From contig JAJTTP010000054.1 of assembly GCA_023313575.1 (NCBI GenBank), positions 1 through 17,627 of the forward strand: a stretch of DNA of 17,627 nucleotides, read 5' to 3'. A program made the position numbers and the translations under genes. The number at the start of each line of letters is the position of its first letter. Position 1 is the first letter of the stretch. Below, piece after piece: positions 5,293 through 11,615 of this stretch. The notes under the pieces were generated by a model that was not told where the DNA came from, ran no database searches, and saw only the letters and a program-made list of their open reading frames with translations. This DNA comes from Eutypella sp. D-1. Taxonomy: Eukaryota; Ascomycota; Sordariomycetes; Xylariales; Diatrypaceae.

Positions 5293-6401
5293 CAAATTTT
5301 TGATAAACCAAACAGTTATTCCAATAATCTGTTTGAATTTATACTCAAGAATTTCACGTTCTTGTTAGGACTTTATCTTAAACAGTAGTATCATTTAATC
5401 TGTTCATTGTACTTTTTAATTTAGAAATTCTTTTAGGCTCATAGCTTAAATGATACCCCTCACTTTGAACTATTAAATGGGCTTTTCTTCATTTTAAATA
5501 ATTAATGTGCTTACTAGATAATAAATGAAAGCGATCAAAATAATTAATAACATTTATGCCTGAACCAGAACTATCTGAAGAATAAGTATATTCATTTTTT
5601 GATTCATCACAGGAAATACTACCACCTAAAAAATCTTTAATTAATAATAGAATATTATTTTTCTGTGGTAGGCTTCATACGAAGTTAGAGCTAGCCACTA
5701 TTTGAAAATTTAATCTAACTTCAACTTTATCACTACTATTAAGTATTTTTATCTGAAAACTACAGGATCTCTGCAAAAGCGATACGGGGGATAAAGCATC
5801 AGAAAACCCGGCTAATCAATGATTTTTTAAATCTTTCTTAAAATTCGTTTTAAAATCAATTTTTTCTCTTAATTCAAGATAATTCTCATTATTTAATATA
5901 TTATCCTTTATCTGATCTAATTTACTTTCCGTTCTAATTTTTTTATTGATTAAATAAATGACTTTTTCCATTCCTTTTTTAGCTGCTATTATTAAAAGAA
6001 AAGCATTTCCATCTTTAACTTTTCTGACACTTCCAAAACCCAAACGTCTTTTAATGTAATAAGCTAAAGAAGCATCTAATGAATGAAATACAATAACCAA
6101 TTGTTGTTTACCATTAAATTCTCCACCACCATCTATTAAACCAGCCAAGTAATGCCCAAATTGATCATCGCAGAGAGGTTTAGAATGTTTAGGTACATGC
6201 ACAGAAATTAATTTCACGTTTTCTGTGTTTACTACAGTTTCGTTGCGTAAAGTCTCGGAGGTTTCATACTTAATATATCTGTCACCTGCTGATTTACCTC
6301 ATTGTTTTAACTTTTTAACTGTATCATTTAAATTGAAGTATTTAAAACTAGATATCAAAGTAGTTCCAGCATATAGCAACGTTAAGAGGCCTACTTTTTC
6401 G
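5293..6401 (-). mobile_element. cox1 intron 7, group I, with LAGLIDADG ORF
   Basis: This 1109-nt group I intron splits the Val codon of HPE-V-Y. P-like ATATGCTGGAAC lies near the 5' end (about 6366-6377), Q-like AATCAGCAGG follows (about 6289-6299), and R is CTCCGAGACTTTACG (6246-6260). S is AAGATAAAGTCC (5368-5379 on the minus strand). R GACTTT and S AAAGTC pair perfectly in P7, with a change on both strands relative to intron 5 (GACTAT/ATAGTC). The ORF fills the R-S interval and its stop codon overlaps S. The remaining 5293-5367 is the 3' peripheral end. Confidence 0.93.
5378..6401 (-). CDS. LAGLIDADG endonuclease with degenerate catalytic motifs, in frame with cox1
   Basis: The exon frame ...GHPEV continues for about 340 residues and ends in TAA at 5378-5380, inside the S element. 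Motif 1 reads LAGLIDGGG (about 85-93): the usual catalytic Asp (LAGLIDGDG) is Gly. Motif 2 reads WLAGFSDA (about 195-202) and is followed by an extra LSPVSLLQR before SCSFQI, where relatives go straight from the acidic residue to the beta strand (as in DADGSFQI). Both active-site acids are thus missing or displaced, although the frame is open throughout. The protein is probably inactive as a nuclease. It could persist as a splicing maturase or be an early stage of decay. The first ~55 residues translate the P-Q-R core. Confidence 0.85.
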
Positions 6402-6423: not shown

Positions 6424-6620
6424 CAATTCCGTATTATATAATTATTTATAACATCCCTTTAATTATATAACTTAGTATAATATACTAACCTAGGGTAAAA
6501 TACCTAGAGGAATCCGACAGTACATTAAGCAGCATTTCAGCCACCCACCGGTGAACCAGTCTGTAGCGATTTCTTAGAAAACCGACGGTCTTAATTTTAT
6601 TGGGAAAATTTTTGACCGTT
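6424..6620 (-). repeat. Intron 6 duplicated 3' module, copy B (splice-site proximal)
   Basis: 6487-6620 matches 7978-8110 over the R/S core: both contain CAGACTGGTTCACC, GGGTGGCTGAAA, GCTGCTTAATGTA and ACCGTCGGTT on the minus strand. The two copies end in the same TACGGAATTG and upstream ATAATTATATA. In copy B the S element reads TACTGTCGG, against TATAGTCGG in copy A. This loses one P7 pair with CAGACT, suggesting that copy B's core may be relaxed. Confidence 0.8.
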
Positions 6621-7768: not shown

Positions 7769-8110
7769 CTATATAATTATTTTTATTCTACCCTAATTAT
7801 AAGCTTAATTTCCTAAAAAAAAATTTTTTTTATTTTTACTCTTATCAATCCCTATCCCGATCACCAGGAGGGTGCGGGATTACCCTACGGGTATAAAAAA
7901 AAATTTAGGGATTAGGAGGAGCTAACTTCGTACACACAAAAAATGAGTAGCTTGCTCCTTCAAGAGAAAAAAGGAAACTAACCTGGAATAACTTACCAGA
8001 GGAATCCGACTATACATTAAGCAGCGTTTCAGCCACCCATTGGTGAACCAGTCTGTAACGGTAAGTAAATAACCGACGGTCTTGTCGCGGTAAAGCGGTT
8101 TTAACCGTTA
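7759..8110 (-). repeat. Intron 6 duplicated 3' module, copy A (internal)
   Basis: This is the internal copy of the intron 3' end. Its R/S core (7978-8110) matches copy B at 6487-6620, and it also ends in TACGGAATTG (7759-7768). Its P7 strands (CAGACT with AGTC of TATAGTCGG) pair better than in copy B. Between core and end it carries about 150 extra bases (7800-7960) with a double hairpin that copy B lacks. Confidence 0.8.
7854..7893. repeat. Tandem GC-rich double hairpin in intron 6
   Basis: The first hairpin pairs ATCCCG (7854-7859) with CGGGAT (7875-7880) and CACC (7862-7865) with GGTG (7871-7874), with a two-base bulge and loop AGGAG. It is followed without a gap by TACCC-tac-GGGTA (7881-7893). 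It sits in an A+T-rich insertion present in only one copy of the duplicated 3' module. The form is that of a mitochondrial double-hairpin element. Confidence 0.6.
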
Positions 8111-9787: not shown

Positions 9788-9881
9788 AGAAAAGATGTTG
9801 GAACAGAATAGGATCACCCCCACCTGCTAATTCAAAAAATGAGGTATTGAAATTTCTATCTGTCAATACCATAGTTATTCC
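9788..9881 (-). CDS. cox1: cox1 exon ([31 protein letters not shown])
   Basis: This 94-nt exon encodes 31 residues plus the first base (T) of the next Trp codon. It carries the very conserved cox1 block [10 protein letters not shown]...GGGDP(I)L.QHLFW. It starts GGA ATA ACT ATG immediately after G9882, the last base of intron 5, and ends CTT TTC T at 9788. The ATG near its start is an internal Met, not a gene start. Joined frames give [17 protein letters not shown]. Confidence 0.96.
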
Positions 9882-10279
9882 CTGTTTTTCGCATTAATCT
9901 ACCTACCTTAGTACTTATAATAATCTTTGTTCAAAGAATTTTAAAAATTCTAAAAAAAATCAATAATTTTCGGTAGATATTCAACACATCACTACGTTGG
10001 TTGGACTATCTCTTATATATTTTTTTCTTTTTTTTTTTTTTTTACCTGTACTTATACTGATACCGAAGGGATATGGCAGGCCTAATTTATTAGAAAATAA
10101 TGAATTTAGATTATCTTGATTCCAAATATTGTCACGATTATTTTCTAATTTAAAAATAAGTTCCTCATAAGATATATGAGGGTTTTTTTTCTGAGATTAT
10201 TATTATAATATACAAAAAATTTTTGAGATATTTCCTATTTTATTTCAACTCTAAAGATATAATTCCTAATCTTAATTAA

Positions 10280-11377
10280 CTAATTGTTATTATTATTATT
10301 ATTATTTAATGATGAAACAGCCTGAAGTGTAGGTGAATTATTATTCACATGATTTATAAGATCTTGTCTAAATCTACGCATACTATCTAATGTACGCTCT
10401 TGAGATTGCACAACAGCAGGACTTCGAGTAGCCCCTTCGGTTTCCATAATGTCTTCAAAATTTGCTATTACAACATTAAGTCTACTTACTCCAAATCTTG
10501 CGTGATCTAGAGGCATTTGATTCATAGCAGTAACTCTACCTCAAATATATCAAGGTGAAGTTGGATTATCTATGAAGGGACCACCTATATGATTTGTAGT
10601 TCCAGGTATTCCACTACCTGGCATTAACGCAGCACGCCACACGCGATTAAGAGATATATCTAAAGCAGCTACAGCTTTACTTCGAACACCTCGTTGACCA
10701 AAATATTCAGCTGTAGCTTGATGAGGCATTTGAGGGTGATTCTCCGCACCCACATCCAAACCATCATACGGTCGAGGGTCATAATCCGCTCTGTTGTCCA
10801 CACTACTATTACGAGAAGATGCTTGAGAACTTGGTCTAGAATTCCCGGGATTCATAGAATTAGGAGATTCTGACCTCCTTGACTCTAATATTTCCTTTAT
10901 ATTACTCTCCTTTAATGAGTCTGCTCCATTATCTAATGATATACCACCTAACGGTAAACCTAAAAATTTACCTTCACAACCAGCTAATAAGTTTGATATT
11001 TTTATATTAAAGAATTTACCTGCGAAAGGTAAATGTAGTGAATAAATAAAACCCGGTATACTAACTATATTAGTTAATACATAAAAATCAAAAATATAAT
11101 GAATACCGCACTTTATAAGAAAACCATACAAACCAGAACACAAACAAGTTAATAACATTAATCAAGTAAACTTAGGAATTATCCCCCTTCATATTCCACT
11201 TTGTAAAGGTAGACTTACAAAGGCGTGAGGTTTAGGTGGACTATTTAAAGCCAAACCTAAGATCATATGACCTCTTAAAGAGGGATTTCTAGCTACTCCT
11301 AAAATTAATGCACCTAAAAATCAAAAAATTAATACACCTGAAAATACATAAAAAACAGAGAGAATTCCCAAGTTTAA
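10280..11377 (-). CDS. Unrecognised chimeric membrane ORF in intron 5 (ATP9-like and cox1-C-terminus-like N-terminus)
   Basis: The frame is open for 365 residues from after a TAG (11378-11380) to TAG at 10280-10282. The first ATG is at 11266 (residue 38), so the true start is unclear. Residues ~5-30 are hydrophobic and include GALILGVARNPSLRG (22-36), which strongly resembles mitochondrial ATP synthase subunit 9. LNSPPKPHAFVSLPLQS (44-60) resembles the C-terminal end of fungal cox1. Two more hydrophobic segments follow (about 71-112). Then comes a Ser/Asn/Arg-rich linker (about 165-190) and a soluble domain with DPRPYDGLDVGAEN, EYFGQRGVRSKAVAALD and ERTLDSMRRFRQDLI. The C-terminus is eight Asn in an AAT repeat. 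There is no LAGLIDADG or GIY-YIG motif. The C-terminal half is more GC-rich than its neighbours, suggesting separate origin. Function unknown. Confidence 0.75.
10283..10306. repeat. AAT trinucleotide microsatellite at the end of the intron 5 ORF
   Basis: A run of AAT codons (one AAC) encodes the terminal polyasparagine of the intron 5 ORF, ending at TAG 10280-10282. Such a run can slip, so the C-terminal length may vary between strains. Confidence 0.7.
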
Positions 11378-11540
11378 CTATGGTATATACTAGATAAAAA
11401 AAAAAAAAAAGAAAAAAATATACTTTGGCATATAGTCTCTGAAGGTTATAGAAAACATTATTTTCTAGCTTTCCTGCTGATTGTCATTATTAAAAGAGTT
11501 TCCAGCAATTAGCCAAATTTAGAGCCGGCAGAACTGATTT

Positions 11541-11615
11541 ACCGGCTAATACAGGTAAAGATAATAATAATAATACAGCTGTAATAACTACAGCTCATCC
11601 AAATAAAGCTAATTT
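11541..11615 (-). CDS. cox1: cox1 exon ([25 protein letters not shown])
   Basis: This 75-nt exon encodes 25 whole codons, one cox1 membrane helix. It starts AAA TTA GCT after G11616 (last base of intron 4) and ends GCC GGT at 11541. The Trp of FGWAV is TGA. Flanking exons join as ...[14 protein letters not shown] and ...PVLAG-GITMVL. Confidence 0.96.

Follow-up and report, generated by a model that had tools for sequence, protein, structure and literature searches.

An open reading frame of 365 codons lies in an intron of the mitochondrial cox1 gene of Eutypella sp. D-1, and it raises the question of what an intron frame without an endonuclease motif encodes and where it came from. We analyzed the whole stretch of 17,627 nucleotides that contains it (contig JAJTTP010000054.1; the window). 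The minus strand of the window is an intron-rich fungal mitochondrial cox1 gene. Using four fetched cox1 proteins as tblastn queries, we located the cox1 exon pieces and found that the gene extends past the window at both ends, so that the 3' end of the host cox1 lies outside it.

The intron and its open reading frame

Under genetic code 4, the whole window holds 11 minus-strand frames of at least 183 amino acids. Ten of them match LAGLIDADG or GIY-YIG above the Pfam cut-off, and the exception is the frame at 10280-11377 (minus strand). This agreed with the preliminary description, which had set an ORF without an endonuclease motif among endonuclease-bearing frames. The surroundings of the frame, here called the chimeric ORF, are as follows.

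11541..11615, minus strand: upstream cox1 exon, ...LLLLSLPVLAG (tblastn)
11423..11558, minus strand: 5' half of the group I core, overlapping the exon end (Rfam Intron_gpI)
11432..11437, minus strand: P7 5' strand, GACTAT
11396..11422, minus strand: 5' arm of the P8 helix, 27 nt, perfect complement of 10016-10042
10280..11377, minus strand: chimeric ORF, 365 codons plus stop, code 4
10016..10042, minus strand: 3' arm of the P8 helix, 27 nt, perfect complement of 11396-11422
10004..10009, minus strand: P7 3' strand, ATAGTC
9789..9881, minus strand: downstream cox1 exon (tblastn; start judged by eye)

The Rfam match to Intron_gpI at 11423..11558 scored 43.8 bits, which is under the gathering score of 50, with an E value of 1.9e-9. 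Folding of the joined intron flanks produced a long P8 helix, the 27-nt arms of which enclose the chimeric ORF, with the P7 strands immediately outside. The perfect complementarity of the arms, the flanking P7 strands and the folded helix therefore place the chimeric ORF within the P8 loop, as had been proposed, at least for its own intron. We had also considered the 27-nt arms as transposon terminal inverted repeats, but this was dropped in favor of the P8 helix because the P7 strands stand just outside them.

Two side observations were made in the window. A short open stretch (..NNRDNIWNQDNLNSLFSNKLGLPYPFGISISTG..) at 10043-10200 (minus strand), between the chimeric ORF and the 3' P8 arm, is perhaps a remnant of an earlier intron ORF. 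A 63-nt stretch occurs twice, at 6506-6568 and 7998-8060, with 90% identity, and perhaps marks two related intron cores.

The chimeric frame opens after a stop at 11378-11380 and is not fused to the cox1 body. When the 1,662-nt intron was shuffled with its dinucleotides preserved, none of 1,000 shuffles attained 365 codons (mean, 75; longest, 180). The GC content by codon position was 0.44/0.43/0.18, similar to that of the four endonuclease genes compared. The frame at 10280-11377 (minus strand) is coding-like. Its first in-frame ATG is codon 38. No domain in the chimeric ORF exceeded the cut-offs of Pfam, NCBIfam, PHROGs or PADLOC, and Pfam ATP-synt_C was below threshold (E value of 0.056; 14.1 bits against a cut-off of 24). 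Neither a LAGLIDADG nor a GIY-YIG domain, as would mark an intron homing endonuclease, was found in it.

The atp9 piece, the cox1 tail and the membrane anchor

The chimeric ORF divides into the following parts.

11270..11344, minus strand: atp9-derived piece, about residues 12-36, with GALILGVARNPSLRG at residues 22-36
11301..11354, minus strand: 24-nt tandem duplication, 2.2 copies, inside the atp9 piece
11198..11269, minus strand: cox1 C-terminal tail, residues 37-60, with the ATG at codon 38 and LNSPPKPHAFVSLPLQS at residues 44-60
10967..11197, minus strand: membrane anchor, residues 61-137, with predicted helices at 72-96 and 107-137, homologous to a Cox1 C-terminal extension
10718..10966, minus strand: Ser/Asn-rich low-confidence linker, about residues 138-220 (homology to the protein P0002 stops at residue 177)
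10337..10717, minus strand: helical soluble part, about residues 221-347, with protein P0001 as the sole detected homologue
10283..10336, minus strand: C-terminal end, with a poly-Asn run from an ATT/AAT microsatellite (10283-10306)

Using an atp9 profile made from 38 fetched atp9 sequences, we found that residues 1-46 scored 32.5 bits, and the best of 5,000 shuffles reached 13.0 bits, so the ATP9-like piece of the preliminary description stood well clear of shuffled sequence. When the same profile was run against 469 stop-to-stop segments of the window, the best 15 rows included, of these, only the chimeric ORF itself. A functional ATP synthase subunit c has a GxGxG first helix and an essential Glu in the second helix. 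Both are absent from residues 1-46, and the atp9 piece is therefore not a working subunit c. The exact cox1 tail pattern has a single occurrence in the window, and none of 200 shuffles contained it. By these comparisons the atp9 piece and the cox1 tail are real, and with the tail the chimeric ORF contains the copied 3' end of a mitochondrial gene of the host. The spacing from GALILGVARNPSLRG to LNSPPKPHAFVSLPLQS is seven residues and not the eight given before.

The cox1 tail does not stand alone. The protein P0002 opens with the ordinary last stretch of cox1, passes through ...PPKPHAFVSLPLQS and continues into a 335-residue extension. In the protein search, P0002 and P0003 matched the chimeric ORF at 36 to 38%. 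Using hhalign, we found that residues 39-177 of the ORF match the P0002 group with 46% identity and an E value of 5.9e-24; the match starts in the cox1 tail, crosses the anchor unbroken and stops at the linker. The tail and the membrane hairpin thus form a single inherited unit. The ORF without its tail still matched P0002 (8.6e-20) and P0003 (1.2e-18) in a phmmer search of a set of 65. We defined a Cox1 C-terminal extension family by a cox1 tail followed by the homologous anchor, and the chimeric ORF has the two in that order. A tblastn search of the window with 77 extension queries matched only the chimeric ORF as an extension copy; the endonuclease genes were also hit, but through the LAGLIDADG-bearing query P0006. 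The atp9 profile, the tail pattern and the hhalign match together upheld the earlier view of the ORF as a chimera of atp9-like and cox1-C-terminus-like pieces. The further claim that these pieces were fused to an unknown soluble domain held in part: the soluble part from about residue 201 is without a match beyond its near-identical copy, but the tail and the hairpin are not separate pieces, since residues 39-177 are one segment of a cox1-fused extension.

P0001, from a second source, is 99% identical to the chimeric ORF (3 differences in 328 residues) from codon 38 onward, with its frame open. The preliminary description had called the soluble domain conserved-looking, and it turned out to be shared by just this one near-identical sequence. 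A scan of viral contigs with P0001 as the query found no relative. Against a profile of the P0002 soluble domain, residues 201-357 scored -2.6 bits, under many of 2,000 shuffles (best shuffle, 3.3). A likeness noted by eye (AFRNSLN / RFRQDLIN) was dropped on this score. The AlphaFold models of the chimeric ORF and P0002 are of low confidence (mean pLDDT of 64.9 and 61.3, respectively) and contain a hairpin, a low-confidence linker and helices; no PDB chain matched these models at an E value of 0.001 or better. A search of 72,556 bacterial-type plasmid records, a set in which fungal mitochondrial plasmids are not represented, gave no match that would indicate a plasmid origin.

Relatives in other fungal mitochondrial DNA

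A protein search with the chimeric ORF returned 71 proteins at E values up to 1. All 71 carry the tail, which is expected because the query itself bears it, and counts of chimeras in this set are biased accordingly. Classified by pattern, the sequence upstream of the tail is cox1 in 63, atp9 in 3 (P0010, P0024 and P0028) and something else in 5 (P0001, P0007, P0014, P0029 and P0043). By eye, P0007 starts with cox2-like sequence and P0043 with repeated stretches of the cox1 N terminus. At least 100 residues follow the tail in 62 of the 71; 51 of these 62 have a hydrophobic segment near the start of the addition, and 38 have a low-complexity linker as well. The domains behind the tail vary, with LAGLIDADG in P0006 and a class-III aminotransferase in P0028. 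P0028 joins atp9, a cox1-like tail and the aminotransferase in a single 638-residue prediction without an anchor, and it may be a nuclear gene.

In a second search with P0010 as the query, the best 120 of 841 matches were taken. In the full set of 193 proteins fetched from the matches listed, 26 have a mitochondrial-type atp9 start with a C-terminal addition. A cox1-like tail is present in 10 of these 26, loosely so in P0077. P0100, a hypothetical protein of Golovinomyces cichoracearum, has a long acidic N-terminal addition followed by a complete atp9. A third search, with the P0002 extension as the query, returned six proteins including P0002; one of them, P0191, has a start other than the cox1 tail.

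We then compared the extensions with one another in a set of 74 that left out P0077, using nearest neighbors in place of a tree. The extensions of P0098, P0073, P0029, P0043 and P0014 are nearest to those of P0056, P0063, P0034, P0061 and P0020, respectively, and that of the window ORF is nearest to P0002. P0010, P0076 and P0007 have weaker neighbors, P0028 has none in the set, and P0096 and P0099 match solely each other. The atp9-headed P0024 and P0072 are mutually nearest and may share one capture event. Since their nearest relatives among the cox1 extensions differ, capture looks recurrent, and these nearest neighbors in a biased set suggest several independent captures.

We also examined six contigs that contain a cox1 3' end, L001 to L003 from IMG/VR and L007 to L009, which look fungal and lie inside bacterial records. 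In L001 (6038-7488), a cox1 with its tail is followed by a LAGLIDADG frame that overlaps it and then by another copy of the cox1 3' end, and the two copies agree at 149 of 166 nucleotides without gaps. By this layout, L001:6038-7488 is a C-terminal-duplication element at cox1. L002 (10037-10515) has a complete tail with its stop and then a degenerate second tail (41/52 nucleotides), which opens a frame of 144 codons bearing a P0061-type extension; here cox1 has apparently been split from its extension. A second tail is thus found in two of the six contigs, and these two suggest a route to a freed unit of tail and extension. L003 ends shortly past the tail. In L007 (3230-3591), cox1 continues in frame into nad4L-like sequence, which we took by eye to be nad4L. 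In L008, cox1 stops at the tail, and about 1.5 kb downstream (5900-6400) there are extension-like stretches broken by stops and repeated 3' fragments, which suggests that such pieces can be dispensable. In L009 (1597-2217), an extension related to P0057 lies directly behind cox1 in a different frame; the sequence has an ambiguous base, and the arrangement could be a frameshift, a separate gene or a sequencing error. With the idea that the tail might be a conserved DNA target, we counted codon identity across the six contigs; the raw counts were 162 of 210 pairs for the tail and 374 of 645 for the remainder of the last 94 codons. No cox1 tail was found at L010 and L011, the two atp9 loci found in IMG/VR. 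An earlier comparison of the ORF with mobile elements that carry host gene ends gained from L001, where an endonuclease gene lies between two cox1 3' ends, but the chimeric ORF itself encodes no endonuclease.

Origin of the chimeric ORF and comparison with known systems

We propose that the last residues of cox1 and a membrane-anchored C-terminal extension were duplicated as a unit, and that this unit was fused in frame to a short atp9 fragment preceding it and came to lie in the P8 loop of a group I intron of cox1. An origin of this kind is well supported by the comparisons above, and we consider it probable. A C-terminal-duplication homing endonuclease element probably set off the copying of the cox1 3' end, as the related contig L001 would indicate. 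The ORF would most likely be translated as an inner-membrane protein. The topology of Cox1 places its C-terminal tail on the matrix side, and the product would have the tail on that side, then a two-helix hairpin, a flexible linker and a helical soluble domain. It would be an accessory membrane-tethered domain uncoupled from Cox1, neither subunit c nor an endonuclease. For this origin and a translated inner-membrane product taken jointly, we judge the case to be evenly balanced. Counted against it are the ATG after the atp9 piece, the mismatch of the soluble part, the lack of a PDB match, the location of the host cox1 3' end (a possible donor) outside the window, the tail-less L010 and L011 and the decayed stretch in L008. 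A new intron-borne gene, as had been suggested from the sequence, is possible.

A serious rival, which we nevertheless hold to be somewhat unlikely, is that the frame is a dead relic, a recent product of illegitimate recombination that is still open through its recency and has no product or function. The lack of a start codon before the tail, the poly-Asn end derived from a microsatellite and the decay of the extension-like stretch in L008 are all consistent with this, as are the just three amino acid differences between P0001 and the ORF (a comparison at the protein level) and the truncated extra gene copies in Helotiales mitogenomes that have been read as duplications (PMC4162613). A relic is harder to reconcile with 365 open codons that have the codon-position bias of the neighboring genes, though that bias could be inherited from the donor, and with the open frame of P0001 in a second source. 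The frame could also belong to a mobile or selfish module of cox1 tail and anchor, duplicated by an endonuclease, acquiring new starts and soluble domains, with some members perhaps biasing mitochondrial transmission. The varied gene starts, the varied domains behind the tail in P0006 and P0028, and the endonuclease with a duplicated cox1 end in L001 point in this direction. However, the chimeric ORF lacks an endonuclease, P0028 has no anchor and may be nuclear, the relatives were gathered with tail-bearing queries and form a biased set, and mobility has never been observed; we consider this reading quite improbable. More broadly, and only tentatively, fungal mitochondria may have a recurrent module of cox1 tail and anchor that is copied through endonuclease-driven duplication of the cox1 3' end, captured behind new starts (atp9 above all), joined to varied soluble domains and possibly selfish in its effect on mitochondrial transmission, with the window ORF as a member residing in a cox1 intron, a proposal that we regard as unlikely.

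Two other readings have very little in their favor. The P8-loop position, which is that of the usual intron protein, would fit a helper of its own intron, a maturase or another splicing aid, but the ORF has no match to a family of endonucleases or maturases, its relatives are Cox1 fusions and not borne by introns, and a membrane anchor would be unexpected in an RNA-binding maturase; such a role is very unlikely. We give equally slight credence to an assembly artefact uniting unrelated pieces of mitochondrial DNA. A/T homopolymer arms do border the insert, and the full structure is seen in a single record, P0001 as listed beginning past the atp9 piece. On the other hand, the frame of tail and extension recurs in P0001, from another source, and the P7 and P8 strands of both sides pair as expected.

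Among the titles and abstracts returned from an open-licence library, a scope that mostly excludes subscription journals, none dealt with a C-terminal extension of fungal Cox1 or with a chimera of atp9 and the cox1 tail. As a kind, fungal chimeric mitochondrial ORFs are already known, and those with an unexplained C-terminal part have previously been reported as truncated gene copies. A coding length of 1,995 bp is longer than usual for cox1. In Ciborinia camelliae, the passages cited here give this length for cox1 and describe copies of atp9 and atp8 whose C-terminal parts had no match (PMC10512376). In Helotiales, duplicated truncated atp9 is described as common, and one atp9 copy without a stop continues into an unrelated 213-residue peptide (PMC4162613, section 12). 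Like the chimeric ORF, the copies in Sclerotinia borealis (ORF 0044; PMC4162613) and C. camelliae (PMC10512376) begin with atp9 sequence that continues in frame into a long C-terminal part. As described in those passages, their atp9 part is full-size or 59 residues long, and no origin is named there for the C-terminal part (PMC4162613, PMC10512376). In contrast, the chimeric ORF is intronic and has about 25 atp9 residues (about residues 12-36 only, and not a near-complete atp9), and the remainder is partly traced to the cox1 tail and extension.

Carboxy-terminal duplications with endonuclease ORFs are described for atp6, atp9, cox2 and nad3, with expressed mRNA (PMC3630166). Such hybrids, in Allomyces atp6 and in Glomus atp6, atp9, cox2 and nad3, resemble the chimeric ORF in placing a copy of a gene 3' end at a new junction, and atp9 is involved there as well; unlike them as described, the chimeric ORF has no endonuclease, is intronic, joins two genes and carries a non-endonuclease extension (PMC3630166). 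Intron-encoded N-acetyltransferases and rps3 (Wai et al. 2019, as cited in PMC7902536) likewise are foreign genes in mitochondrial group I introns, but in that account they encode whole recognizable enzymes or ribosomal proteins (PMC7902536). Other passages describe a decayed mitochondrial atp9 alongside a nuclear copy (PMC8260586), an atp9 region prone to pseudogenes and endonuclease-linked duplications (PMC7487136) and in-frame "core creep" fusions (PMC10448965). In bivalves, Cox2 C-terminal extensions and a duplicated cox2b are reported (PMC3176263). These extensions, as described, are also extra C-terminal parts with predicted membrane helices, sometimes on a duplicate gene; they concern another subunit in another kingdom, and the likeness is one of description (PMC3176263).

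Tracing the C-terminal part to a Cox1 extension provides a testable source for some fungal chimeric ORFs. It also offers a way for a domain attached to an essential respiratory subunit to be freed and reused. Plant cytoplasmic-male-sterility (CMS) chimeric ORFs join atp and cox pieces to a membrane-associated part. The chimeric ORF has the same combination; unlike the plant ORFs, it is fungal and intronic, and is known here from its sequence, without a known phenotype. If expressed, it would be an extra membrane-tethered protein in the mitochondrial proteome and a direct parallel to the plant chimeric mitochondrial ORFs. The recurrent module, if true, would be the counterpart in fungi of the chimeric ORFs of CMS type, or else of the Cox2 extension in bivalves.
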